A program made the translations under genes and the position numbers. From Phycisphaeraceae bacterium (GTDB lineage: Bacteria; Planctomycetota; Phycisphaerae; Phycisphaerales; Phycisphaeraceae), in the NCBI GenBank assembly GCA_029260635.1, contig JAJDCW010000070.1, forward strand, positions 1 through 43,462: a stretch of DNA of 43,462 nt, in the 5' to 3' direction. Below are positions 19,622-35,627 of this stretch, piece after piece. Position 1 is the first letter of the stretch. Each line of letters begins with the position of its first letter. The notes under the pieces are model-generated. The model ran no database searches, was not told where the DNA came from, and saw nothing but the letters and a program-made list of their open reading frames with translations.

Positions 19622-20695
19622 TTAACCCGCGCCGGCCGGGGCCTTCGTGGCGGGCCCGACGTTCGAGTCGATCCGGCGGACCAGCGCCCAGTCGTCTTTG
19701 TAAGACACCGGCGCGAACCCGTCGATACCCTCAGCCACCAGGGCCTCGGCGTCTGCGCTGTCATCAACCTTAAAGCTGAGCAGCCCCTCGCGGATCTTTT
19801 CTGCCAATTCGGGCTTGAGGTTGTAGATATAACCGATCGCGGCAGAGGGGAAGCGCTCCGACTCATAGATGCTGGCCACGCTGCCTTCTTCGATATCGCC
19901 CCGGGCTACCGCGCGGGCGAGCATGTCGCTGGCGGTCGCCGCCGCCTGGTATTTCCCGGCCGCGACCCCCGCGATCGACTCCTCGTGACCGCGTGAGAAC
20001 ACGAAGTGGTAGTCCTGGTCGTACATCAGGTTGAAGTCGCCAAGCAACACCATCGGGGCCTTGCAGCCCGAGTTCGACCCGGGGTCGGTGAACGCGATGT
20101 TGCCACCCTTAAGGTCCTTCGGGGATTTGATGTCGCTGCCCTTAGGGACAATGATGTTCATCGTGTAGCCGTGCCTACCCTCGGCGTCCGCCGGGGAAGC
20201 CACCGGCACGAACCCGTAGAGGTTCACCGCCTCGGGCACGTTCCCCGTGTTCACCGCCGTGACGTGCAGCCGGCCCTCACGCATCGCCAGAAGCTGGTCA
20301 CGCGCCGACTCGTAGCGCACGTACTGAACGGGCTTACCGGTCGCTGCCGACAAATGATCGGCCAACGGCTTCCACGTCTTCTCATATGACTCCGAGTTCG
20401 GGGCCGCGACGTAGGAGAACAGGATCGCCTCTGGATCGACCCAGCGATCCGCTTCCTGTGGCGGGTCGGCCACGCTGTCGCCGTCCGCGTCGTTGTAGAT
20501 ATCCGCCAGCAGCATCGACTTAGGCTTATCCAGCCCGAAGATCTTGGTCGTCCGTGTCGGATCGTTCTTGGGGACCTGATCCAGACCGTACTGATACGCG
20601 ACGATCGCGATCAGGATCACAATCAGGATAGTTACCATCAGACGTGCCATTGAAAACTTCAGCCCTTTTGCGTCGCCCTGTTCCGTACCACTCAT
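19622..20695 (-). CDS. PhnD-like phosphate/phosphonate substrate-binding protein with N-terminal TM
   Basis: SYEKTWKPLADHLSAATGKPVQYVRYESARDQLLAMREGRLHVTAVNTG, DPGSNSGCKAPM. Confidence 0.82.
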   Translation of the reverse strand: MSGTEQGDAKGLKFSMARLMVTILIVILIAIVAYQYGLDQVPKNDPTRTTKIFGLDKPKSMLLADIYNDADGDSVADPPQEADRWVDPEAILFSYVAAPNSESYEKTWKPLADHLSAATGKPVQYVRYESARDQLLAMREGRLHVTAVNTGNVPEAVNLYGFVPVASPADAEGRHGYTMNIIVPKGSDIKSPKDLKGGNIAFTDPGSNSGCKAPMVLLGDFNLMYDQDYHFVFSRGHEESIAGVAAGKYQAAATASDMLARAVARGDIEEGSVASIYESERFPSAAIGYIYNLKPELAEKIREGLLSFKVDDSADAEALVAEGIDGFAPVSYKDDWALVRRIDSNVGPATKAPAGAG

Positions 20696-20892: not shown

Positions 20893-22203
20893 TCACGTCT
20901 TAATCAGCCCCATCGGCTTGTCGTTGGCGTCGTATTCGGGGAAGAACTGGTGGTCGTCCGCCTGGAAGCCGTAGAGCCCGGCGAGCACCTCGGCGAAGAC
21001 GTCGCGGAAGTCGGTGTACACCGGCATGTCGCGCCCCTCGTACAACGACCGGCTGGAGAGGCCGGTCCACTTCCCGTAGAACCGCCCGCCGTTGACCGGC
21101 CCGCCGACCGCGAGCATGTACCCGCCGTGCCCGTGGTCCGACCCGCTGTTGCCGTTCTCGCGCGCGGTCCGTCCGAACTCACTCATGGTCAGCACGACCG
21201 TCCGGTCGATCTTCGATCCCAGGTCATCTACAAACGCCTCGATCGTGTTCGAGACGTTCCCCATCATCTGCTGGAAGACGCCGTAGCTGCCGCCCTGCAT
21301 CGCGTGGTGGTCCCAGCCGTTGTAGTCGATCGCCGCGACCTCGAGCCCCGCGTCGGCCTTGATGAGCTTAGCGATGTCACGGAACTGCCCGCCCAGTGTC
21401 GTCTTGGGATAATCAACCGCCGACTTATTCTTGCCGTCGTTAAGCACTTCGTTCAGGCGGTTCAGCCTCGCGATCCCCTGCGCGCCCGCCTCGATGATGC
21501 GCCCGCGCCCGGTGGTCGGCGATTCTTTGTCCGCGGGCTTGTCGGCGTCTGGTCCTTCCTGCGACTTCGCGGTCTGCTTGGCGTCGTCACAGCCGTACAA
21601 CCCCGCGAACACCGAAGCCGCCGACTGTGCATCCTTATCCGGCACCGCCAACGCCGGGTACTGCCCGCGCAGTGACCTGGGCAGCACCGGCTGAAACGAC
21701 ACCGCCCGCAGGTCCGAGTCGTCCCCGGTCTTGGTCATGTAGAGGTACCGGTTCAGCCAGCCCTCGGTCACCGACTTCACCCCCGGTGCCGCACGCTCCA
21801 TGAAGTCCTGGGCGTCGAAGTGGCTGCGCGTCGGGTGGGTCGACCCCGCGTTCACGATCGGCGCCATCAGACCCTTCTTATAAAGCCGGGCCAACCCCGC
21901 CATCGACGGGTGGAAACCAAAGTAATCGTTCAACGCGATCACACCGGCCCGGGGGTTCTCCCCACTGGGCGCGGGCACCGCGATCGTCGGCCGAAGGTTG
22001 TAGTACGTCCGGTCCCCGTATGGGATTAACGCGCTCAGCGGGTCAGACCCGCCACGCAGATACAGCACCACCACCGTCGGCTTGCTGGGCGTAGCGCCAC
22101 CCGCCGCGCCGAACACCGTCTTGGGTCCAAGTGCGCCGACCCCGGCCGCGCCCAACGCGATCGTGCCGGTCTGCTTGATAAACTCTCGCCGGGTCGTCGC
22201 CAT
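20893..22203 (-). CDS. DUF1501 domain-containing protein (Tat signal)
   Basis: TTRREFIKQTG twin-arginine signal; YLRGGSDPLSALIPYGD, TMSEFGRTARENGNSGSDHGHGGYMLAVGGPVNGG. Confidence 0.92.
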   Translation of the reverse strand: MATTRREFIKQTGTIALGAAGVGALGPKTVFGAAGGATPSKPTVVVLYLRGGSDPLSALIPYGDRTYYNLRPTIAVPAPSGENPRAGVIALNDYFGFHPSMAGLARLYKKGLMAPIVNAGSTHPTRSHFDAQDFMERAAPGVKSVTEGWLNRYLYMTKTGDDSDLRAVSFQPVLPRSLRGQYPALAVPDKDAQSAASVFAGLYGCDDAKQTAKSQEGPDADKPADKESPTTGRGRIIEAGAQGIARLNRLNEVLNDGKNKSAVDYPKTTLGGQFRDIAKLIKADAGLEVAAIDYNGWDHHAMQGGSYGVFQQMMGNVSNTIEAFVDDLGSKIDRTVVLTMSEFGRTARENGNSGSDHGHGGYMLAVGGPVNGGRFYGKWTGLSSRSLYEGRDMPVYTDFRDVFAEVLAGLYGFQADDHQFFPEYDANDKPMGLIKT

Positions 22204-22266
22204 CCCAAGCCGCCTTTCTATGAATCTCTGCAAACCCTACCAACCGCAAAGCGTGAAAAGAAGTTG

Positions 22267-22361
22267 GCCGCGAATGAACGCCAAATGTACGCGAATAAAA
22301 TGAAATCGCCGCCATCCAAAATCGTCTTTATCATTTGCGTTGATTCGCGTTCATTCGCGGC
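22267..22361. repeat. Inverted repeat upstream of the DUF1501 gene
   Basis: gccgcgaatgaacgc (22267-22281) and gcgttcattcgcggc (22347-22361), perfect 15-bp arms. Confidence 0.8.
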
Positions 22362-22420
22362 TAATCACCCGTCTTGATTTTCTTCGCGCCCTCAGCGCCT
22401 TCGCGGTTCGTCTTCTTGCC

Positions 22421-24046
22421 TCACTGCTCCTGAAACATCGGCGAGCCCAGCACCATCCCCGCCGCCTGTTTGGGTTCGGGCTTCTTGCCCAGCGCACTTT
22501 CGATCGTGTCCCAGCCCTCGGTCTGCGTCCCCTCCGCCAGCAGCGCCTCCGCGAGGGCCTGTTTCAGCTTGGCCGGGTCATCCTTAGGCATGTCTTTCCA
22601 GAATGTGCCGGGCACCTTCACGCCCCCGACCTTCCCCTGCGCCAGCCGCAACGCGAAGTCCCAGCGGTACACCAGCACGCCCGGGTCCAGCCAGGCCTCC
22701 GCCGTGTCGCTGTAACCCGTCGGGTCGACACACCCATACACCGGCTGGCCCATCCGACGCAACGCCTCACGTGTCCCGTTAAAACTCGTCATGTGCGCGT
22801 TGGTCGCCCGCAGCGACGCGACCACAAACTCGAACGGCGTGCGGAATTTCGCCCGGTAATTCGCCGAATCCATAAACGCATCGCTAAACAGGATCGCCTC
22901 GTACACGGCGGCGAGGTCCCCGTCCGTGTCCTCAAACACCTGCGCCACCTCGTCGATCAACTCGGTCGGCGGGTCGTCACACACCAGGTACCGGCACAGC
23001 TTGGTCGAGATAAACCGGGCCGTCTGTTTGTGCTCCGCCAGCGCCTTGATAAACCGCACGCCACCGGCCTCGCCCTCATTCCCCCGGAAACTCATCCCCA
23101 ACACGCGCTTGGGCTCATCGTCGTGCACACTCTCGCGGAACCTGAAGCCGTAGCCGTCGCCCCCGCCCATCATCGAGTCCCCGGACCGCCCGGCGGTCCA
23201 CCCGGTCAAGAGACGCGCCAGCTCGGTCACGTCCCGCTGGGTGTACCCGCCCTTGCGGTTCTCGTTGGCTACGCCCAGTGTGTGAAGCTCCATCAGCTCA
23301 CGCGCGTAGTTCTCGTTCAGCCCGCGCTGTCTGCCCAGCGCCATCACGGACCTTGGCTGATACTTCTTGTTCTCAAACCGCACCAGCATCCGCTGCTCGC
23401 GGTCGCTCAAGGGTTTCTGGCTGACATCGTTGTCGAGATAGATCAGCATCGCGGGGTGACGCGCCGACGCCATCAGCATATCGGCGAAGTCCCCGAACAT
23501 GTATTTTCGGATCACCGCCTGCTCGTAGTGCGCCGCGAGGTACTGGACCTGGTCCTTGCCCTGGTCGATGTTGAAGTGGTTCCGCCAGAACTCCGCCATC
23601 ACCTCCTCGAACCGGCGCTCGCTGTAAACAGCCCGGTAGATCACCGACCCGGTCAGTTCCTTGTTCAGGTCGTACCGCAGCTTGTTGCGGTTCTTGATCT
23701 CTTCCTGCGTCGGCGGTTCGTTCTCATATCGCGGGTAGTACTCGGCCCACACCTGCTCCATCGTCATCGCCAGCGAGGGGAAATGTTCGAGCACATACTT
23801 GTTCGTCTTGTCGTTATCGATCTCGCGCGATGCCATCTGCTGACGGACCCACGCCTCCCAGCCCATCTCGGCGACGCGATCCACCTCGCCTGGCCCTGGA
23901 CCGAAACCAAGCCGGTCCAGCACGTGCCGCGCCGCCTGGCGGTCCGTCATGGGTTCAGCGCTTAATCCACCCGGACACAACCACAGCAAAGCCAGAACCA
24001 TCAGCCCCAGGCCTAACCCCGTTGTATTCATGCCGCGTGTAATCAT
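22421..24046 (-). CDS. DUF1800 domain-containing protein
   Basis: ARHVLDRLGFGPGPGEVDRVAEMGWEAWVRQQM; MAEFWRNHFNIDQGK; NENYARELMELHTLG; paired with DUF1501. Confidence 0.92.
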   Translation of the reverse strand: MITRGMNTTGLGLGLMVLALLWLCPGGLSAEPMTDRQAARHVLDRLGFGPGPGEVDRVAEMGWEAWVRQQMASREIDNDKTNKYVLEHFPSLAMTMEQVWAEYYPRYENEPPTQEEIKNRNKLRYDLNKELTGSVIYRAVYSERRFEEVMAEFWRNHFNIDQGKDQVQYLAAHYEQAVIRKYMFGDFADMLMASARHPAMLIYLDNDVSQKPLSDREQRMLVRFENKKYQPRSVMALGRQRGLNENYARELMELHTLGVANENRKGGYTQRDVTELARLLTGWTAGRSGDSMMGGGDGYGFRFRESVHDDEPKRVLGMSFRGNEGEAGGVRFIKALAEHKQTARFISTKLCRYLVCDDPPTELIDEVAQVFEDTDGDLAAVYEAILFSDAFMDSANYRAKFRTPFEFVVASLRATNAHMTSFNGTREALRRMGQPVYGCVDPTGYSDTAEAWLDPGVLVYRWDFALRLAQGKVGGVKVPGTFWKDMPKDDPAKLKQALAEALLAEGTQTEGWDTIESALGKKPEPKQAAGMVLGSPMFQEQ

Positions 24047-24163: not shown

Positions 24164-25228
24164 TTATCCCCCATACACCCCCGTCTCGGGATGAAACGCG
24201 TACCAGGCAAACCAGAACGTGTGCAGCACCTCCGCACCGGTCGGCACCTCAACCACCCGTACACCGCCGACCCCGCTCGCCTCCAGGACCACGCGCCCAC
24301 CACCCAGCGCATCATCGATCCGGCCACCCGGCGCAGCGGCGATCCGGTCGATCGGGTAGGCACGGGCCTCGCCTTCCACCCGCACCCCGACCACCGGGTA
24401 CTTATTCGCAAACCGCCCGTCGGTCGTCTCGACAGGAAACATGACCCGGTCGTTCTCAAAATAGGACGCATACGCCACCGTGTTGTATCGCTCCGGCCCG
24501 TAGTGCCCAGTCTCCAGCGACGCCACCGTCGAATCCGGGTGTGCTTCACGCCAGTCTGAAAACGTCGTGATCTCCCACCCGCTGAGGTGTGTCAGCGACT
24601 TCCCCGCGTTAGGCCCGCTGACCGCGATCAGTCCGGCCTGTGACCACAGCGCATTGTCGGTCCGGTCGTACAGCAGCACGTTCGAGTTATACAGCAACCC
24701 CGAGATGCCGAACTCATACGTCTGATCGCCCAACCGACGGTCCACCACACTCACCGAATCGCACAGCGGGCAGAAGATCACCGCGATCGGCACGCCGCCG
24801 AGTACATCGTTGTAGCACTCGTGCCAGTTGAGCACCTTAATCGGGTACGCCCGGCCCTCGCCGTTGACCGTCACGCCCACCACCCGGTCGTCGTCAAACA
24901 TAAATTCCGCATCGGACACCGGCGCCGTCTCCGGATCGGTCAACGATGGGATGCCGTCTTTCGGGGGTCCACCGCTTCGGATGCGCTCCCGCGCGACTTG
25001 CATATTCTCTAGATCAAACGCGGGTTCCGAGTCATACTCGGGATACACAAACCCGGGGTGTCCGTCCGTGTCACCCCCGCTCGTGATCCGTTCGATCTCA
25101 TCCCACTGCACGACCGCCACCACACCCAGCGCAACCACCCCCATCAACACCCCAGCCAGTACTTTTTTGGGTGTCCAATAGACCGTGTCGGGTTCAGACA
25201 TGCTTGCACTCCTGGAGTAGAAGCTCAA
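24164..25228 (-). CDS. DUF3179 domain-containing protein
   Basis: GEGRAYPIKVLNWHECYNDVLGGVPIAVIFCPLCDSVSVVDRR; SGLLYNSNVLLYDRTDNALWSQ. Confidence 0.85.
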   Translation of the reverse strand: MSFYSRSASMSEPDTVYWTPKKVLAGVLMGVVALGVVAVVQWDEIERITSGGDTDGHPGFVYPEYDSEPAFDLENMQVARERIRSGGPPKDGIPSLTDPETAPVSDAEFMFDDDRVVGVTVNGEGRAYPIKVLNWHECYNDVLGGVPIAVIFCPLCDSVSVVDRRLGDQTYEFGISGLLYNSNVLLYDRTDNALWSQAGLIAVSGPNAGKSLTHLSGWEITTFSDWREAHPDSTVASLETGHYGPERYNTVAYASYFENDRVMFPVETTDGRFANKYPVVGVRVEGEARAYPIDRIAAAPGGRIDDALGGGRVVLEASGVGGVRVVEVPTGAEVLHTFWFAWYAFHPETGVYGG

Positions 25229-25311: not shown

Positions 25312-26331
25312 TCACCCCTTGAGCCCGCTCGCCGCCGTGCTCTGCACGAAGTACCGCTGGGCGGCGAAGAACAGCAGGATACAGGGCAGCATCGTCACAA
25401 AGCTCGCCGCCATGAGTAGCTGCACGTCGCTGACCCCGTAGTTCCCGTTAAAGGCGTTGAGCGCCAGCGTCAGCGTCCGGTTCTCCGGGCTGTTCAGGTA
25501 GATCAGCGGGCCCAGGAAGTCGTTCCACACGAACATGAACGTGTAGATCGCCACGATCGCGATCACCGGGCCACTTAGCGGCAGCATCAGCCGCCAGTAG
25601 ATCATCGTGTTGCCCGCGCCGTCGATCCGTGCCGCCTCTACTAATTCCTCGGGCACCTGCGTGAAGAACTGGCGGAACATGAACACGTAGAACGGCGAGC
25701 CCAGCCACATCGGGATCACCAGCGGCCAGATCGTGTCGATCATCCCCAGATTTCTAAACAGGATAAACAGCGGGATCATGCTCACCTGCGGCGGGAGCAT
25801 CATCGTCGACAGCATCAGCATGAACAGGAAGTTCCGCCCCCGGAAGCGGAACCGTGCGAAGCCGAAGCCGACCAGGCTTGACGACAGGATCTGCCCGATC
25901 ACGCAGAGCACCGTGATCACGGTCGTGTTCGCCAACGCGCCCATGAAGTCCATCCGCTCAAGGGCCCTGGGGTAATTCTCCCAACGCGGTGTGAGGTTGC
26001 GATGTATGTCTGCTTGAGCAACGACGTGCTCTTCCCCGTTGCGTGGGTGGTCCGCGCCGACCTTGATTGTCACCCGGATCGTCTGGTTCGTGTCATCCTT
26101 CTCGCCCAGCGAGACCTCTAGCGATTCGCCTTCAAGCTCGACATACGACGCCATCGGCAGCAGCGTCGGCGGGTTCGCCATCGCCTCCGCCTCGGTCTTC
26201 AGGCTGTTGGTCAGCATCCAGTAGAACGGGATCAGCAGCAGGAACGCGCCGAGGAACAACAGCGAATACACCAGCACCGCGTGCCCGTCGATCGGCTTAC
26301 GTTTTTTAAGGGGGTTTGAGGTAGCCATCAT
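25312..26331 (-). CDS. Carbohydrate ABC transporter permease (MalG-like)
   Basis: EELVEAARIDGAGNTMIYWRLMLPLSGP EAA motif; C-terminal AAQRYFVQSTAASGLKG. Confidence 0.92.
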   Translation of the reverse strand: MMATSNPLKKRKPIDGHAVLVYSLLFLGAFLLLIPFYWMLTNSLKTEAEAMANPPTLLPMASYVELEGESLEVSLGEKDDTNQTIRVTIKVGADHPRNGEEHVVAQADIHRNLTPRWENYPRALERMDFMGALANTTVITVLCVIGQILSSSLVGFGFARFRFRGRNFLFMLMLSTMMLPPQVSMIPLFILFRNLGMIDTIWPLVIPMWLGSPFYVFMFRQFFTQVPEELVEAARIDGAGNTMIYWRLMLPLSGPVIAIVAIYTFMFVWNDFLGPLIYLNSPENRTLTLALNAFNGNYGVSDVQLLMAASFVTMLPCILLFFAAQRYFVQSTAASGLKG

Positions 26332-28754
26332 TTAAGCCCCTCGTAATGCACCCAGCTCTTGCTGGACTTCACCACGATGCCCGTGAGGATCAGCAGCACG
26401 ATGAACAACACCCACGCCATCGCGGACGCGTAGCCCATCTTGTGGTACTCGAACGCTTCGCGGTACAGCTTCAAGACATACACCAGCGTCGCGTTGCCCG
26501 GCCCGCCGTTGGTCATGACGTATACCTGCGTGAATACCTGGAACGAGCCGATGATCCCCATCACCAGGTTGAAGAAGATCAGCGGCGAAAGCTGCGGCAG
26601 CGTCACGCTGAAGAACGCACGCATCCGCCCGGCCCCGTCGATCTTCGCCGCCTCGTACAGCGACTCGGAGATACCTTTAAGCCCGGCCAGGTAGATCACC
26701 ATCCCCGCGCCCACGCCCCACAACGCCATCACGACGTAGGCGGGGATCGCGAACAGCTCCGCGTCCACACCGAACCAGTCGGGGGGGCGGTTTAACAGCA
26801 CGTGATCTGAACCCAGCGCGATCAACAACTCATTAACCCGGTCGATCGCGGGGGCTAACAATTGGTACCCCCAACCCAGCACCCGGTTGATGATCCCGCG
26901 CTTGTTGTCGAACATCATCACCCAGAGCGTCGCCAACGCGACCCCGGACACGACCGAGGGCACGAAGAACACCGTCCGGTAGATCGCGATCCCCTTGACC
27001 TTCTGGTTCATCAGGACCGCCACCAACAACGCAAGTACCTGCCCGAACGGCACCGCCAGCAGCGCGTAGTACGTCGTCACCCACACGCTCTTCATGAAGC
27101 TCGCGTCGTAGCTGACCATGTGCCCGAAGTTGCCTAAGCCCACAAACTCCGCTTCGCCCAACGGCTGCATACTCGTCCAGCGTGACATCGCCAACAGCAG
27201 CGACAACCCCATCGGCCCGAACGTCAGCACGAGAAACCCCACGATCCAAGGCGAGATAAAGACCCACCCCGCACGCTCCTGCGCCCGATCGATTGCCCCC
27301 AGCTTCTCCCGACGCAGCCAGAGGAACAGCCCCCCGACCACCAGCACCAGCAACACACCCGACGAACCCACGATCACGCCCCAGGCCATCCGCGGGAAAG
27401 AGCGGTTACGCAACGGCGAACCTAACTCAGCAAGCCAACGCGCCTCCGTGTTTTTTCCCGTGACTTCCGCGGACTGCTTGCCGTACTGGATCGTCTGCGC
27501 GACCTCTTCCTCGAAAATGCGTGCGAACTCCGGCTCCGGGGGCATCTGCCCGATCCTTGCCGTGTCGATCAGGTCGATAAACAGCTTCGCGTTCGCGGGC
27601 TTCTGACCCGGCTGAAGGAAATCATCCGACTCGGCTACGGGTTTCGTGCAAGGCACCGCAAGCCCCGATCTCGCCGTCAGCTTCTGCCCCTGCGTGCCAC
27701 ACAAAAACTTCATCAGCTTGAACGATTCTTCGGGATGCTTAGTCGTAGAGGACATCCCCCAGGCGACCACCGCGACGACGCTCGCCGGGTCCTTGCCTTC
27801 AAGGTGCGGGAAGGGCACGACGTCCCAGTCGAACGTATCGATCGAACGGAACCTCGGCGTCCGCCATCGGCCGATCGGCCCGACCACCCCGATACGCCCG
27901 GTGTAGAACTCCTGCTCCCCAAGCCCCTGCGCGTCGCCGCCGGTCGCGTTATAGGCCGTCTTGTCGTCGAACCGCATGCGACGGACGTGTTCCAACGCCG
28001 CGATGGCTTCAGGTTCATCAAGCGTCACGTCCGTGAAGTCCGTCCCATTGAAGTAGTCCCCGCCGTAGGACCAGACCATGTTCCGCAAGACGGCAGGCCA
28101 GGACGCGATCACCGACCCGTAGACCTCGCCGTTGGGGTCTTCCAGCGCGCTGATCTTCGCCATTGCGTCATCGAACTGGGCCCACGTCCATCCGTCGTAA
28201 GGCACGTCCACACCCGCACGCTGGAACAGTTGCAAGTTCGCGTACATCAGCATCGGTGTGAAGTCTTTGGGGATGCCGTACAACGGTCCCGCGCCCAGTT
28301 TCTGCCCGTCGTACTTGAACGCGTCCAGCAGCACCGGGTAGAACTCGCCGATCCAGTCCTCGCCCGTCGCCTTCACGTCCCGGGCCACCGGCGTGTCGAT
28401 CGGCTCGAGCAGCCCCATCCCCGCGAGCTTGGGCACGTCCTCGTAGCGCAGATAAAATAGGTCCGGCGGATCGCCGGCGGCGAACATCGTGTTCAGCTTC
28501 GTGTCGTAGTCCGACGCGTGCAACCGATTAATCCGGATATCCGGGTGTTCGGCCTCGAACGCGGCGACCAATTCTTCAACAATGCGTATCTCGTCGTTGT
28601 CCCCCCAGTGCAGGATCGTCAGCTCGGTGCGCGTGTCTTTGCGGGCGGAGTCCCAGCGCTGATACGCGCGCAGCCCCACATCAAAGAATGACCAGAGCAC
28701 CACCAGCGCCGCCGCCAGCGCCAACAGCCACCGGGCTACCCGCGCCAGTGTCAT
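26328..28754 (-). CDS. Fusion protein: extracellular solute-binding domain plus ABC permease domain (MalE-MalF type)
   Basis: N-terminal TM then SBP (LTILHWGDNDEIRIVEELVAAFEAEHPDIRI, AAGDPPDLFYLRYEDVPKLAGMGLLEPID), then TM and permease (ERAGWVFISPWIVGFLVLTFGPM, ESLYEAAKIDGAGRMRAFFSVTLPQLSP); ATGA overlaps with both neighbours. Confidence 0.92.
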   Translation of the reverse strand: MTLARVARWLLALAAALVVLWSFFDVGLRAYQRWDSARKDTRTELTILHWGDNDEIRIVEELVAAFEAEHPDIRINRLHASDYDTKLNTMFAAGDPPDLFYLRYEDVPKLAGMGLLEPIDTPVARDVKATGEDWIGEFYPVLLDAFKYDGQKLGAGPLYGIPKDFTPMLMYANLQLFQRAGVDVPYDGWTWAQFDDAMAKISALEDPNGEVYGSVIASWPAVLRNMVWSYGGDYFNGTDFTDVTLDEPEAIAALEHVRRMRFDDKTAYNATGGDAQGLGEQEFYTGRIGVVGPIGRWRTPRFRSIDTFDWDVVPFPHLEGKDPASVVAVVAWGMSSTTKHPEESFKLMKFLCGTQGQKLTARSGLAVPCTKPVAESDDFLQPGQKPANAKLFIDLIDTARIGQMPPEPEFARIFEEEVAQTIQYGKQSAEVTGKNTEARWLAELGSPLRNRSFPRMAWGVIVGSSGVLLVLVVGGLFLWLRREKLGAIDRAQERAGWVFISPWIVGFLVLTFGPMGLSLLLAMSRWTSMQPLGEAEFVGLGNFGHMVSYDASFMKSVWVTTYYALLAVPFGQVLALLVAVLMNQKVKGIAIYRTVFFVPSVVSGVALATLWVMMFDNKRGIINRVLGWGYQLLAPAIDRVNELLIALGSDHVLLNRPPDWFGVDAELFAIPAYVVMALWGVGAGMVIYLAGLKGISESLYEAAKIDGAGRMRAFFSVTLPQLSPLIFFNLVMGIIGSFQVFTQVYVMTNGGPGNATLVYVLKLYREAFEYHKMGYASAMAWVLFIVLLILTGIVVKSSKSWVHYEGLK

Positions 28755-30736
28755 CGCATCTGCCCCCTGTCGGACAGGACCGCGGAGCCATAAGGCTCAA
28801 GCTCGATCGTCATCACCGGCCCCGTGACCCTCCCTGCGCCTGCGACCGGCATTAGCCTCGGCCGACCGGCCGCTTCATCAACAGCGTCAACACGGACCGC
28901 CGCCTGCTTCGCATCTAACCAATCAATCATCTTCGCGCCATGATCCCCCTGCGCCAATTCGATCTCAACCACGCGCGTCTCTGCGCTCCGATTAATCACG
29001 ACATACACGTGCCGGTTGTCCAGGTCCCGGGCATACGCCAAGACGCCCGTCTCGTCGTCCGCGATCAGTGTCCTGAAGAATCCGTGCTGCAACGCCGGCA
29101 ATCCGCGCCGCAACGCGATCAGGCGCTGATACCAGCTAAACAGGTCTTCATCGAACACCACCTCGGGGTCGTCGTAAGGCATCAGGTCGCGCCAGATCAT
29201 GGGCATCCGGTTGCTCGGATCGTCCGGGCTCCACATCCCCGCCTCGTTGCCGTAGTAGATCATCGGAGCGCCGACGAACGTCATCTGGCAGACCACCGCC
29301 TGCTTCATCCGCTGTTTCTGCTTCGCGTTGGGCATATCCAGCTTGTAGTCGGGCCCCGTGTCCTGGAGGCGGTTGCTGGTGTCGTATCCCAGGTCCGGGT
29401 TGACGAACATCGACGCCAGCCGATCGGTGTCGTGGCTGTCGAAGAGGTTCTGCATCACCAGCGCGGATTGCAGCGGGTACGCGTACACCAGTTGATTTAA
29501 TATGGTTGAAAACTCGCTTGGTGTGGTCGCCGTCTTTACATCCACAAAGAAGTCCTGGGCGGGGATCGCGAACTGGTAGTTCATCACCCCGTCGAATTGA
29601 TCGCCCTCGAGCCAGGGTTGCGCCCAAGTCCAGACCTCACCGCTGATGTACGCGTCCGGGTTGATCGACTTCACAAGCCTGCGCCACTCAATCCAGAAGG
29701 GGTGGGGGATATCCGGCGCGACGTCCAGCCGCCAGCCGTCGACGCCGGCGCTCACGTCCCCGTTTGGCGCCATCCATCGGCGGGTGATATCGAAGATGTG
29801 TTGACGCGGGCCGTCGGCCAGCCCGTGCACGGGGTCTTTTTTCAGTAGCGGCAGATGACCGTTGTCGCGGTCCCAGCCGCTCCACTGCAGCCCGCCGGGC
29901 CGGCCGGGCTTGTCGCCGGTACCCCAGTCAGTAATCTCGAACCAGTCGGCATATTTCGAGTCGCGGCCGTGCTTGATGACATCCTGAAAAGCGTAGTGCC
30001 CCTCGCCGACGTGGTTAAACACCCCATCAATCACGATCTTGAACCCCTGACGGTGCGCCTCCTGGATGAACTCAAGGAATACCAGGTCGCTCTCGGACCA
30101 CTGCCACGTCGAAGGGTCGTCCGTCTCGCCCACGAGTTGTTCAAGGTCCCCCTTCACGCCGAAATTGTCATCGATGTGTCGGAAGTCGCTCGCTTCGTAC
30201 TTGTGCATGCTCCGGGCTTCGAACAGCGGATTGAAGTAGATCGCGTTGACGCCCAGCTCGCGCAGGTAGGGCAGCGCCTCGCGCGCGCCCTGGATATCTC
30301 CGCCGAAGCGCCGATGCCAGACGTTGCCCGCGCCGTTGTGAAAATTCTCTTCGCCCGCCGCCTCGCCCGGGAGCGTCGCCCACCAGTCCGATTGCCAGCG
30401 GTGTGTGCCATCGGGGTCGTTCGATGTGTCCCCGTTGCGGAACCGCTCGGGGAAGACCTGGTACCACACCGCCGACTTCGCCCAGTCAGGCGTCACGAAC
30501 GCGGGCCGCATGTCACAGGCATACGCCGACGATTGTGCTTCCTCCAGCGAATCGACTAACCCGCCCGCGGATTGAAAGACCCGCGCATCGCCGTCGATCA
30601 GCTCGAACAGGTAACGCACCGGCTCGCCCGGCAGCTGGATCAGTGCGCCGTAACGCCCCAGCCCGACCGCCTCGCCGCAAGGCTCCAGCGCGTAGCGCAT
30701 CCAGCCGCCACCGCCTTGCGCTCCGGCGAGCAACAC
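28751..30736 (-). CDS. Glycoside hydrolase family 13, neopullulanase/cyclomaltodextrinase-like
   Basis: GTG start; VWYQVFPERFRNGDTSND, VFNHVGEGH, DGWRLDVAPD, ISGEVW, DSHDTDRL. Confidence 0.9.
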   Translation of the reverse strand: MLLAGAQGGGGWMRYALEPCGEAVGLGRYGALIQLPGEPVRYLFELIDGDARVFQSAGGLVDSLEEAQSSAYACDMRPAFVTPDWAKSAVWYQVFPERFRNGDTSNDPDGTHRWQSDWWATLPGEAAGEENFHNGAGNVWHRRFGGDIQGAREALPYLRELGVNAIYFNPLFEARSMHKYEASDFRHIDDNFGVKGDLEQLVGETDDPSTWQWSESDLVFLEFIQEAHRQGFKIVIDGVFNHVGEGHYAFQDVIKHGRDSKYADWFEITDWGTGDKPGRPGGLQWSGWDRDNGHLPLLKKDPVHGLADGPRQHIFDITRRWMAPNGDVSAGVDGWRLDVAPDIPHPFWIEWRRLVKSINPDAYISGEVWTWAQPWLEGDQFDGVMNYQFAIPAQDFFVDVKTATTPSEFSTILNQLVYAYPLQSALVMQNLFDSHDTDRLASMFVNPDLGYDTSNRLQDTGPDYKLDMPNAKQKQRMKQAVVCQMTFVGAPMIYYGNEAGMWSPDDPSNRMPMIWRDLMPYDDPEVVFDEDLFSWYQRLIALRRGLPALQHGFFRTLIADDETGVLAYARDLDNRHVYVVINRSAETRVVEIELAQGDHGAKMIDWLDAKQAAVRVDAVDEAAGRPRLMPVAGAGRVTGPVMTIELEPYGSAVLSDRGQMR

Positions 30737-31321
30737 CTACACCCGCTGCTCGTCCCCCGCCTGCACGCGGATGCTCAACCGCAACAACGAGCCCGACGCC
30801 ACCGTCATGTCCGGCACGTCGCCCGGGTCGTGGATCACCGCGGAAGGCTCGATGTAATCAGGCTTAGGCGTCGGCAGCCCCCGGGCATCGACCCCGACCA
30901 GCACGGCGGAGTTGACCCCGTAGTTCCCGTCGGGCCTTTCAAACTCTTTGTCGCTCGCCGGGTCGTTGACCCAGGTATCGCCATTCACCACAAACTTGTA
31001 CCAGTGCACGCCATCGGGCAGCTCGACCGATACCCGGTAGGTACCGTCGCCCCGGTTTTGCATCGGCAACGCGTGCATCGACCAGCCGTTAAAGGAACCG
31101 GCCAGGTGGACCGTCTGAACTTTCACACCCTCTACTTCATCACCGGGCGTGTATTCAAACTGATGCCCGGCCCCCGGCACAGGCCTGATGATGTGCGTCG
31201 TCGCGTCTGATCCGCCCGCCGGCGCGTCCGCCACGGCGCACGCACCTAGCAAGAGCAAACCCGTTATAACGGTTAACCGTCCGAACCAACGCGCGCCTCT
31301 ATGGGTGATCTCACATTTCAA
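30737..31321 (-). CDS. Lipoprotein with glycogen-binding domain (CBM48/AMPK1-like)
   Basis: LLLLGACAVAD lipobox-like signal; VHLAGSFNGWSMHALPMQNRGDGTYRVSVELPDGVHWYKFVVNGDTWVNDP. Confidence 0.82.
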   Translation of the reverse strand: MKCEITHRGARWFGRLTVITGLLLLGACAVADAPAGGSDATTHIIRPVPGAGHQFEYTPGDEVEGVKVQTVHLAGSFNGWSMHALPMQNRGDGTYRVSVELPDGVHWYKFVVNGDTWVNDPASDKEFERPDGNYGVNSAVLVGVDARGLPTPKPDYIEPSAVIHDPGDVPDMTVASGSLLRLSIRVQAGDEQRV

Positions 31322-31364: not shown

Positions 31365-34300
31365 TCAGTCACGACAAAGCACCATCATCGAGTAGGGCGG
31401 CAGCAGAAGCTCGCCCGATGCCTCTCCGAGTTTTTTGACGCCGGCGTGTTCGTGATTCACGACGATGTTCCAGGCGCCTTCGGGCAGGTCGATCGATCGC
31501 TGCTCCGCGTCACCGTTGTAGACCACGAGGATCGTGTTCCAGCTGTCGCCGACCGCGCTCCCGTCGAGTTCGTACCACACCGGCCCGGGCTCGTCGTGGA
31601 AAGAGAGGTGGTTGCGTACCTGCTTGCGCGTCCGCAGGCGGAACGCCGGGTGCTCCCTGCGGAGCTGGATGAGCCCGCGGGTGTAATCAAACACATCCCG
31701 GTACGCGGCTTTCCGTGGCCAATCAAACTTATTGACCTCGTCCCCGGCGTTGTAGGAGTTGTGGTTGCCCAGCTTCGTCCGGGCGAAGTCGCTGCCGCCG
31801 TGCAGGAACGCGACGCCTTGTGACGTCAGCACGATCCCCAGTGACAGCTTGTGCATCGCGCGCCTGGTCGCGTCGTCGCCATTCGGCAGTGTGTGGATCA
31901 GCTTGTCCCAGAGGGTCCGGTTGTCGTGGGCCGAGGCGTAGTTGATCGACTCGGTGGGGTGCTCGGCGAAGTCATCGATCGCGCCCGCCACCCCGTCACG
32001 GATTTCCTTGTTGTGCCCGCCACCCATCGCGAAGCCGAGGGCCATCCCGTCCAAGTCGCCGCGGATCGCGTTGCGCAGGTGGTCGTTAAACACCGCGACA
32101 CCCATCTTTTTCTGCGCGCCCTTGGGGAAGTGGGTCGGCCCGCCGCCGGTCCAGGGCTCGCCGTAGATCAACAGGTCCGGGCGGATCGCGTGCAGTTCCC
32201 TGGCCACCAGCGCCACCGACTCCTTGTGCATCATCCCCAGCAGGTCGAAGCGGAAGCCATCGATGTGGTATTCCTGGACCCAGTACTTCAGCGAGTCCAC
32301 GATGTACTTGCGCGCCATTGGCCGCTCGTCCGCGATGGCGTTGCCGGTCCCCGACTCGTTCCGAAGCCGACCGCCGGGCGTCGTCCGGAAGTAGTACCAG
32401 GGCACCGCCTGATCGAAGGGGGATGCGCCGAACGACGTACTCGTGTGGTTATAAACCACGTCCATTACCACGCGGATATCCGCCTCGTGCAGCGCCTTGA
32501 TCGTGGCCTTGAGGTCCTTGATCGCCTGCGCCGGGTCGTCGGGGTTGGTCGAGTACTGCGCCTCGGGTACATTGAATAACGCCGTCCAGTAGCCCCAGTT
32601 GTATTCATTCATCCCCGCGCTGTAGTCCTGGATCGGCAGCAGGTGCACGGTCGTGACACCAAGCTCCTTGAGGTGCGACACGCCCGTGGCGATGTCGCCG
32701 GTGTTCTCGTGCGCCAGTCCCAGGTACTTGCCCCGGTGTGCGGGCGGGCAAGAAAGGTCCTCGATCGAGTAGTCCCGGACGTGGATCTCGTAGATCACCT
32801 CGTCCACCGGGCTCGCGCTCATGGGCGGGGCGTCGTTCTCCCAGCCCGCCGGGTCGGTCTGGTCAAGGTCCACCACCATTGACCTAGCGCTGTCCCTGGT
32901 CGCGGCGTAACAATAAATGTCGGCTACGATTCTCACTTCGCCGTAGGAGGTGAACTTGTACTGGTAGTAGAGCCCGTGCAGGTCGCCCTCGACGCGTGCC
33001 CGCCAGACCCCGCCGTGGCCACGCGACATCGTGACCGTGTCGTAAGGCTCGGCCTCGTCCGCCGTCTTATATAGAAGCAACTCCACCGATTCAGACACGG
33101 GCGACCAGGTCGCGAACGCCGTCGCCACCGATGTGTGATCCGCGCCCAACTCGGCACCCAGGTCGTGGAACCTATCGTCGGTCAGCACCTCACGGGCGTA
33201 CACCGTCGCAGGCCCGGTCCCCGGCAGGCTCAGCGTCATCCCCGACACGATCGAATCCAGGTCCACCGGCTTATCGAGTTTCAGCATCAGGTCGCGCGAC
33301 CCGGCATCGCCGTGCCCCTTGGTCTTGACCTCGGCCACCGGGTACCGGTCATCGCCGACCTGTACCCAGCCTGCCGGTTCGCTGAGTTGTGCCGCGGTCG
33401 CCGGCTGATTCAGCCTCACGTGCAACAGGCCCGGCTCATCTAAAAACGCTCGTTGTATCTGCAAGGCAAAATCCAGTTTCGCAGGGTCCATAAACACACG
33501 TTCCTCGCCGGCTACCAACCACGCCTCGGCCACCCCCGCCTCGCTGGGCGACACAAATCGATCCACATCCCCGTCCCGCTCGAGCCAATCGCCCCGGCGG
33601 ACTATAAAGCCTACACGATCCGTCGGCTGGGCAAACTCGAGTTGGGCATACACCCCGTACCCGTCTTTCTTATCAAACGGGTACGCCTTGCCCTCCTGGC
33701 CATCCGCCCAGGCCCAGACCGCCCAGCCATCGTACTTCCCGTCGGGACGATGATAGTGCAACACCGCCACCGCGCCCGCGCCCACCGCCCGGGCTGACGC
33801 CGGCGCGGCCGAGACATAGCCCTCGCCCCCGGGCATGCTCCCTGGCTCCGCCCCGCCGTCCATGGGTACCGCGTCCTGTGCCTCGTCCACGATCGGCGGG
33901 GTCGTATCAAACGCCAGCCGCCCCTCACGGACCCAGACCTCCGCGATGCCGCCGGCCCCGACTTCTATCATCCGGTCCCGGTCACCATCCTTCTGTTCCC
34001 AGTCGCCCCGACGCAGGAGGAAGCCCAGCTTTGGGTGTGCTTCATCAAGCACCACCACAGCATACAAGCCAAACGCGTCCGACCCGGCCAGCGCATATTC
34101 AGACCCTTCCGCGTTCACCGGCCAGGCCCACACGTTCCACCCCGCGTAGTCCGCCGCGTCCCGACGGTAATGCACAATCAATATGGTTTGCCCCCCAAAG
34201 TCCGACGCCGACTTGCCATCGGCGAGCGCCTCGACCCGTATCCCCTCTCCCGCCCCCGATTCATTAACCCCGACCTCCCCCCAAGCGCTCGCCACCCCCG

Positions 34301-34397
34301 TCATTCCGGGGGTGCCGGGGGTGCCGGGGATTCCGGGGGCGCAGCACAACACACACACACCCAACCACACCAGGAGTGCCCATCGCCTCATCAACAA
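31365..34397 (-). CDS. pulA: Secreted type I pullulanase with two CBM41-like modules
   Basis: VIYEIHVRDYSIEDLS, VVYNHTSTSFGASPFD, GFRFDLLGMMHKES, YGEPWTGGG; two VHYRR/LHYHRPDGKYDGWAVWAWADG segments. Confidence 0.92.
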   Translation of the reverse strand: MLMRRWALLVWLGVCVLCCAPGIPGTPGTPGMTGVASAWGEVGVNESGAGEGIRVEALADGKSASDFGGQTILIVHYRRDAADYAGWNVWAWPVNAEGSEYALAGSDAFGLYAVVVLDEAHPKLGFLLRRGDWEQKDGDRDRMIEVGAGGIAEVWVREGRLAFDTTPPIVDEAQDAVPMDGGAEPGSMPGGEGYVSAAPASARAVGAGAVAVLHYHRPDGKYDGWAVWAWADGQEGKAYPFDKKDGYGVYAQLEFAQPTDRVGFIVRRGDWLERDGDVDRFVSPSEAGVAEAWLVAGEERVFMDPAKLDFALQIQRAFLDEPGLLHVRLNQPATAAQLSEPAGWVQVGDDRYPVAEVKTKGHGDAGSRDLMLKLDKPVDLDSIVSGMTLSLPGTGPATVYAREVLTDDRFHDLGAELGADHTSVATAFATWSPVSESVELLLYKTADEAEPYDTVTMSRGHGGVWRARVEGDLHGLYYQYKFTSYGEVRIVADIYCYAATRDSARSMVVDLDQTDPAGWENDAPPMSASPVDEVIYEIHVRDYSIEDLSCPPAHRGKYLGLAHENTGDIATGVSHLKELGVTTVHLLPIQDYSAGMNEYNWGYWTALFNVPEAQYSTNPDDPAQAIKDLKATIKALHEADIRVVMDVVYNHTSTSFGASPFDQAVPWYYFRTTPGGRLRNESGTGNAIADERPMARKYIVDSLKYWVQEYHIDGFRFDLLGMMHKESVALVARELHAIRPDLLIYGEPWTGGGPTHFPKGAQKKMGVAVFNDHLRNAIRGDLDGMALGFAMGGGHNKEIRDGVAGAIDDFAEHPTESINYASAHDNRTLWDKLIHTLPNGDDATRRAMHKLSLGIVLTSQGVAFLHGGSDFARTKLGNHNSYNAGDEVNKFDWPRKAAYRDVFDYTRGLIQLRREHPAFRLRTRKQVRNHLSFHDEPGPVWYELDGSAVGDSWNTILVVYNGDAEQRSIDLPEGAWNIVVNHEHAGVKKLGEASGELLLPPYSMMVLCRD

Positions 34398-34511: not shown

Positions 34512-35627
34512 TCAGCCCCGGTCGGACACGATCGAGGTCGAGTCGCGCAGCACCAGGTGGGCGGGCATCCGCTCAGCTATCTTCTGCGTCTTGCCACGCA
34601 CGCGCTGGACCAGCATCTCACACGCCCGCGTCCCCACCTCGTACAACGGCAGGTGCACGGTCGTCAGGCTCGGATTCACGAACGCCATCTGCTGGATATC
34701 ATCAAACCCGACCACCGAGACGTCCTGTGGCACGCGCTTGCCCATATCCATGAGCCGGTGCATCGCGCCCAGCGCCATCTTGTCGTTACACGCGAAGATC
34801 GCCGTGGTATCCGGGTGCCGCTTAAGGACTTCATCCGTCGCGGCAGCGCCGCCTTCTTCGGTGAATCGCCCGTCGGCCGTCCAGCTCTCATCCGCATCAA
34901 ACCCCGCGTCGTGCATCCGGGCAAAATACACGCCCATGATGTCGCGGACCGTCTGGGCCTCCGAAGCACCCGCGATCAACGCGACCTTCTTATGCCCAAG
35001 CTGCAATAGCACGTTCATCACCTGCTCGGCGCCCGAGCGGTAATCCGCCACGACGTAATCCAGGTTCAGATCGGGGAAGTAGTTATTCACACACACCATC
35101 GGGAACCCAGCCGCCGCGAAGTCTTTCACAAACGGGTGCCGGTCGTTAACCCCCAGGCAGAACATCCCGTCCACGAACCGCCGTTCGAACAACTCCATGT
35201 GCTTGCGTTCACGCAGGAAATCCGGCTTCGCTGACTCCAGCATCACTTTATGGCCCAGCCGGTCGGCCCGGTCGCAGATCCCGCTTAACAGTTCCCCGAA
35301 ATACGGGTCGCTGAACGCGTGACGCAAAGGCGGCAAAAGCACCGCCAACACCCGCGTGTACTGGCTGGACAGGCTCTGAGCCAGACGATTGGGCCGATAC
35401 CCCAGCTTCTCAATAATCCGCCTGACCTTGATCTGAGTCGCCTTGCTGATCCGTGGGTTGTCATTCAGGACCATGGAGACCGTCGCCACTGATACACTGG
35501 CCTGTTGCGCGACCTCGCGCATCGATACCCGCCGAGTACCGCCATTGCGCCGGCTGGACGGCTGGCGCGTCTTGGTCGTGGTGGACGCCGCTGGCGCGTC
35601 CGCGATCTCACTGGATGGTTCAGACAT
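34512..35627 (-). CDS. LacI family transcriptional regulator
   Basis: SMREVAQQASVSVATVSMVLNDNPRISKATQIKVRRIIEKLGYRPNRLAQSL HTH plus periplasmic-binding-like C-terminal domain. Confidence 0.95.
   Translation of the reverse strand: MSEPSSEIADAPAASTTTKTRQPSSRRNGGTRRVSMREVAQQASVSVATVSMVLNDNPRISKATQIKVRRIIEKLGYRPNRLAQSLSSQYTRVLAVLLPPLRHAFSDPYFGELLSGICDRADRLGHKVMLESAKPDFLRERKHMELFERRFVDGMFCLGVNDRHPFVKDFAAAGFPMVCVNNYFPDLNLDYVVADYRSGAEQVMNVLLQLGHKKVALIAGASEAQTVRDIMGVYFARMHDAGFDADESWTADGRFTEEGGAAATDEVLKRHPDTTAIFACNDKMALGAMHRLMDMGKRVPQDVSVVGFDDIQQMAFVNPSLTTVHLPLYEVGTRACEMLVQRVRGKTQKIAERMPAHLVLRDSTSIVSDRG

Follow-up and report, generated by a model that had tools for sequence, protein, structure and literature searches.

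A carbohydrate-binding domain fused to a MalF-type permease in a Phycisphaeraceae bacterium and its relatives in Planctomycetota and other phyla

Described systems with tethered binding domains or shared ATPases

The closest described counterpart of the transporter analyzed here is the MalE-MalF fusion of the maltose/maltodextrin ABC transporter of Bdellovibrio bacteriovorus (Licht et al. 2019, Res Microbiol 170:1-12, as cited in PMC7756565), and the account given in PMC7756565 presents fusions of the MalE-MalF type as transport-competent. Like the planctomycete protein, it belongs to the carbohydrate class and has a single binding domain fused to MalF, one per complex. A direct literature search for MalE-MalF or other permease-fused binding proteins returned no reports, and the Bdellovibrio study was known through reference lists; a search for planctomycete SBP-permease fusions likewise found none.

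The E. coli MalFGK2-MalE and UgpAEBC systems share their domain content and a heterodimeric permease with the system described below, whose predicted ATPase partner is, like theirs, of the OB_MalK type. In these systems the binding protein is free in the periplasm, and E. coli carries the MalK gene alongside those of the other components. Covalent linkage of a binding domain to a permease is also a property of GlnPQ and OpuA, but these belong to other transporter families (amino acid and osmolyte, respectively), and the OpuA complex carries two binding domains (PMC11065425), versus one predicted for the planctomycete fusion. MsmX-type ATPases (Leisico et al. 2020, PMC7658222), finally, exemplify one ATPase acting with several sugar permeases, as is predicted here.

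The fusion gene and its operon

The analyzed window (43,462 nt) is the whole of contig C70 of a draft genome assembly of a Phycisphaeraceae bacterium (344 contigs, 92% complete). The initial annotation described a single 808-aa ORF at positions 26328-28754, encoding an N-terminal TM helix, an SBP domain, a second TM helix and a MalF/UgpA-like permease. This ORF is present on the minus strand (28754..26328), with an ATG start codon at 28754, a TGA stop codon at 26328 and no internal stops, and the order of its parts is the one indicated by Pfam, hydropathy analysis and AlphaFold2 modelling alike. The Pfam search placed a family-1 SBP, as found in CUT1 importers, at residues ~58-379 (SBP_bac_8 and SBP_bac_1, E 4e-32 and 7e-30; the SBP_bac_8 match spans residues 61-379) and BPD_transp_1 at residues 573-795 (E 2e-15) of the same ORF, i.e. 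the SBP is N-terminal to MalF in one chain. Hydropathy analysis located TM segments at residues 10-28 (about 8-28) and 460-478, followed by the six of the permease. In the AlphaFold2 model, obtained with a 16-sequence input (mean pLDDT 81, pTM 0.73), the predicted tethered topology comprises long helices at residues 2-39 and 458-481 on both sides of the SBP fold. The protein can thus be divided into a TM helix (~8-28), the SBP (~42-445), a TM helix (458-481) and a six-TM permease (~490-800), whose EAA motif is intact (EAAKIDG, residues 701-707). Since no lipobox cysteine was found at the N-terminus and the basic residues RREK follow the second helix, the protein fits a topology with the N-terminus inside, the SBP outside and the N-terminus of the permease inside.

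The possibility that two separate genes had been joined by a sequencing or assembly error, raised in the initial annotation, deserved attention given the draft state of the assembly, with its 344 contigs, and the fact that another CUT1 system of the same genome, on contig C295, is split. However, when 61 related genomes were searched with the protein, colinear fusion matches, full-length or nearly so, were found within the genus, the family and the order. Fifteen relatives from other genomes were aligned with the window protein (42-87% identity); all are colinear over the junction, and all 16 sequences can be aligned along the linker that leads from the SBP through W458 and R494. Several of the fifteen come from near-complete genomes, and among their assemblies are ones of one, six and two contigs (G010, G013 and G052, respectively). 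Since 15 colinear full-length homologues exist in other genomes, chance and a missing stop codon are excluded, an assembly error is ruled out as the source of the fusion, and the probability that two genes were artificially joined is negligible. The SBP-MalF fusion is genuine and conserved.

The fusion gene is part of a cluster of genes on the same strand, in the order LacI-family regulator, pullulanase, CBM48-GH13 enzyme, fusion and MalG. The regulator (34512..35627, minus strand; identified by Pfam and the loci of relatives) is the first gene of the conserved cluster. It is followed by a type I pullulanase with PUD and CBM48 domains (31365..34397, minus strand; TIGR02104, 646 bits versus a cut-off of 504.5). 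The last gene encodes a MalG/UgpE-type second permease of 339 aa (25312..26331, minus strand; Pfam, NCBIfam and hydropathy). Direct reading of the sequence confirmed ATGA overlaps on both sides of the fusion gene, with the GH13 stop codon at 28754-28751 and with the MalG start codon at 26331-26328, which supports the earlier proposal of one coupled operon. Most relatives within the family have the LacI and GH13 genes upstream of the fusion, and a GH13 gene lies beside it in most relatives examined; in a more distant lineage, the GH13 gene is divergent and upstream.

The CBM48-GH13 gene is divided by an in-frame TAG codon (30739-30737, minus strand). This codon ends the CBM48/AMPK1_CBM glycogen-binding N-terminal part (31321..30737; Pfam) and precedes the neopullulanase/maltodextrin glucosidase-like GH13 catalytic part (30736..28751; Pfam, NCBIfam and relatives). 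In two sister genomes (loci L152 and L153) the gene is one continuous frame of 924 aa, and the TAG is due to a nonsense mutation of recent date or else to an error in base calling. A search for LacI operators with GNAANCGNTTNC, allowing one mismatch, yielded 15 matches versus 16.5 expected by chance, and no operator is claimed.

Compared with most relatives, the window MalG is longer between TM1 and TM2, where residues ~60-125 form an insertion that measures ~150 aa in the sister genomes (L152/L153) and is absent in L156/L157. Downstream of MalG lies a DUF3179 gene (24164-25228), which is also found near the operon in both sister genomes. A DUF1501 and a DUF1800 gene lie next to each other at 20893-24046; this gene pair is common in planctomycetes. 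A PhnD-type phosphonate/phosphite SBP is encoded at 19622-20695, and the matching permease and ATPase are absent from the contig.

Predicted cargo and ATPase partner

The best NCBIfam relatives of the two permeases are UgpA/GlcT/MalF (fusion) and UgpE/GlcU/MalG (second permease), all below the equivalog cut-offs. Similarity is nevertheless clear, and two different BPD_transp_1 permeases, one of the MalF/UgpA type and one of the MalG/UgpE type, are present, as CUT1 requires. A MalF/MalG heterodimer would therefore carry a single binding domain per complex. The locus very probably encodes a CUT1-family (MalFGK2-type) importer of alpha-glucan oligosaccharides whose MalF subunit permanently carries one tethered binding domain.

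The PDB sequence closest to the SBP part is AbnE, an arabino-oligosaccharide binder (E 5e-42), followed by the cycloalternan binder Lmo0181 (E 7e-30). The best structural matches of the SBP part are 5f7v (Lmo0181, cycloalternan) and 6rjy (AbnE), and further ones include 9xf5, with cycloisomaltooctaose, and 6dtq (Thermotoga MalE3), with maltose; apart from AbnE, these proteins bind alpha-glucans. With AbnE as the top match by sequence, the substrate assignment is based mainly on operon context. The ranking of AbnE and Lmo0181 would suit the import of another oligosaccharide (arabino-oligosaccharides, or branched or cyclic alpha-glucans) in place of linear maltodextrin, but the adjacent pullulanase and CBM48-GH13 genes, which are kept near the fusion in relatives, point to alpha-glucans and render this alternative unlikely as a whole, even if they do not decide between linear and branched or cyclic alpha-glucans. 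An alpha-glucan oligosaccharide is thus the most likely cargo.

In the proposed mode of action, alpha-glucans would be broken down by the pullulanase, and possibly also by the CBM48-GH13 enzyme. The SBP domain, held between two TM helices on the outer face of the inner membrane, would close on a maltodextrin-like ligand and dock onto the pore formed beneath it by the MalF domain and MalG. Translocation would be driven by two copies of the only MalK-type ATPase of the genome, whose gene lies on a different contig and which would also serve other sugar permeases.

As noted in the initial annotation, no ATPase is encoded nearby: a profile search of contig C70 gave no PF00005 match. The source genome contains exactly one OB_MalK ATPase, on contig C184. 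Its domains are ABC_tran, OB_MalK and TOBE_2, and its Walker A, LSGGQ and Walker B motifs are intact. With the genome 92% complete a second MalK could be missing from the assembly, but near-complete relatives also have one, and the count is one in each of 15 genomes (the source and 14 relatives). In G010, MalK is encoded ~3 kb from the fusion operon. Moreover, fusion, MalG and MalK genes are contiguous in ten sampled related loci (L038, L040-L045, L161, L162 and L166), of which L041 and L161 represent the same G043-like sequence. The single MalK per genome and these contiguous loci lend good support to the prediction that the importer depends on a shared MalK/MsmX-type ATPase, for which the C184 protein is the candidate partner.

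The lack of an ATPase on the window contig might also suggest that the fusion is a sugar sensor or a non-transporting receptor. This is highly improbable in view of the intact EAA motif, the presence of a MalG partner, the MalK gene directly downstream in many relatives and the single MalK in every genome checked.

Orphan MalKs fall into one clade and operon-linked MalKs into another (99 SH-aLRT). The ATPase may therefore be a replacement, as opposed to the same gene relocated, and the orphan may represent a multitask housekeeping copy. Four residues have been tested in MsmX, a multitask ATPase (D77, R104, E110 and K154; Leisico et al. 2020, PMC7658222). The orphan MalK, whose sharing is predicted here, keeps D77, R104 and E110 and has Ala in place of K154; D77 and R104 also occur in operon-linked MalKs, so the comparison discriminates little.

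Distribution and origin of the fused architecture

The source genome encodes at least three further SBP-permease fusions, on contigs C202, C294 and C297 (loci L031, L032 and L033, respectively). Each is followed by a MalG-type permease, in which a stretch of 320-380 aa between TM1 and TM2 has no match to a Pfam family. A profile search for ABC_tran on these three contigs and on C295, which carries the split CUT1 system, gave no match.

When 392 Planctomycetota genomes were sampled evenly, 34 matched the fusion protein at E 1e-60, and both halves were found in one ORF in 26 of them, so that at least 26 of the 392 carry such a fusion. A GTDB scan also identified fused ORFs in Armatimonadota, Fermentibacterota, Calditrichota, Gemmatimonadota, Nitrospirota, Sumerlaeota and other MAGs, and many relatives in Bacillota and Chloroflexota are split. 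The architecture had been considered unusual for the carbohydrate class, a view contradicted by these surveys and by the Bdellovibrio report of Licht et al. (2019), which together show it to be largely both widespread and already described. The window gene itself is ordinary and well supported, in a lineage where such fusions are common.

Among the profile and structure matches of the window SBP was PDB 6ffl, assigned to Bdellovibrio by its PDB title. We take it to be the binding domain of the Bdellovibrio fusion. It superimposes on the window model with a TM-score of 0.81 on target, but the two binding domains are only 18% identical, and a single-sequence search with the window SBP at E 0.001 did not find 6ffl. 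Because of this low identity and the missing single-sequence match, the window fusion, judged by its binding domain, is probably separate in origin from that of Bdellovibrio.

Mapped on a tree of 116 permease rows, the fused state requires five changes, at least four of them forced by the starred branches. The view that all fused CUT1 permeases go back to one origin was rejected, the AU test excluding one fused clade (p-AU 0.0018) on a quick tree, for a fused group named after the first tree was seen and with gain and loss indistinguishable; of the rows cut by contig ends in the tested tree, one was counted as fused and two were left out. The group containing the window protein (~40 rows, including a Fermentibacteria sequence; support 93 in the first tree) is entirely fused once contig-end-cut rows are corrected. 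Rejection of a single fused clade suggests that repeated fusion or fission of SBP and permease is likely.

A broader reading, that fusion arose several times and that at least four tethered importers as well as split ones in this planctomycete family all depend on the single orphan MalK, is put forward tentatively, as somewhat short of probable. If true, a whole class of CUT1 uptake in this family would be tethered and hubbed on one ATPase. The MalE-MalF design of Bdellovibrio is in any case no curiosity, being common in Planctomycetota and recurring in several other phyla. Tethering holds each transporter to one binding domain, whereas in E. coli the periplasm contains a large excess of the binding protein, and the recurring fused and split states provide natural pairs for testing the effect of tethering on affinity and rate.
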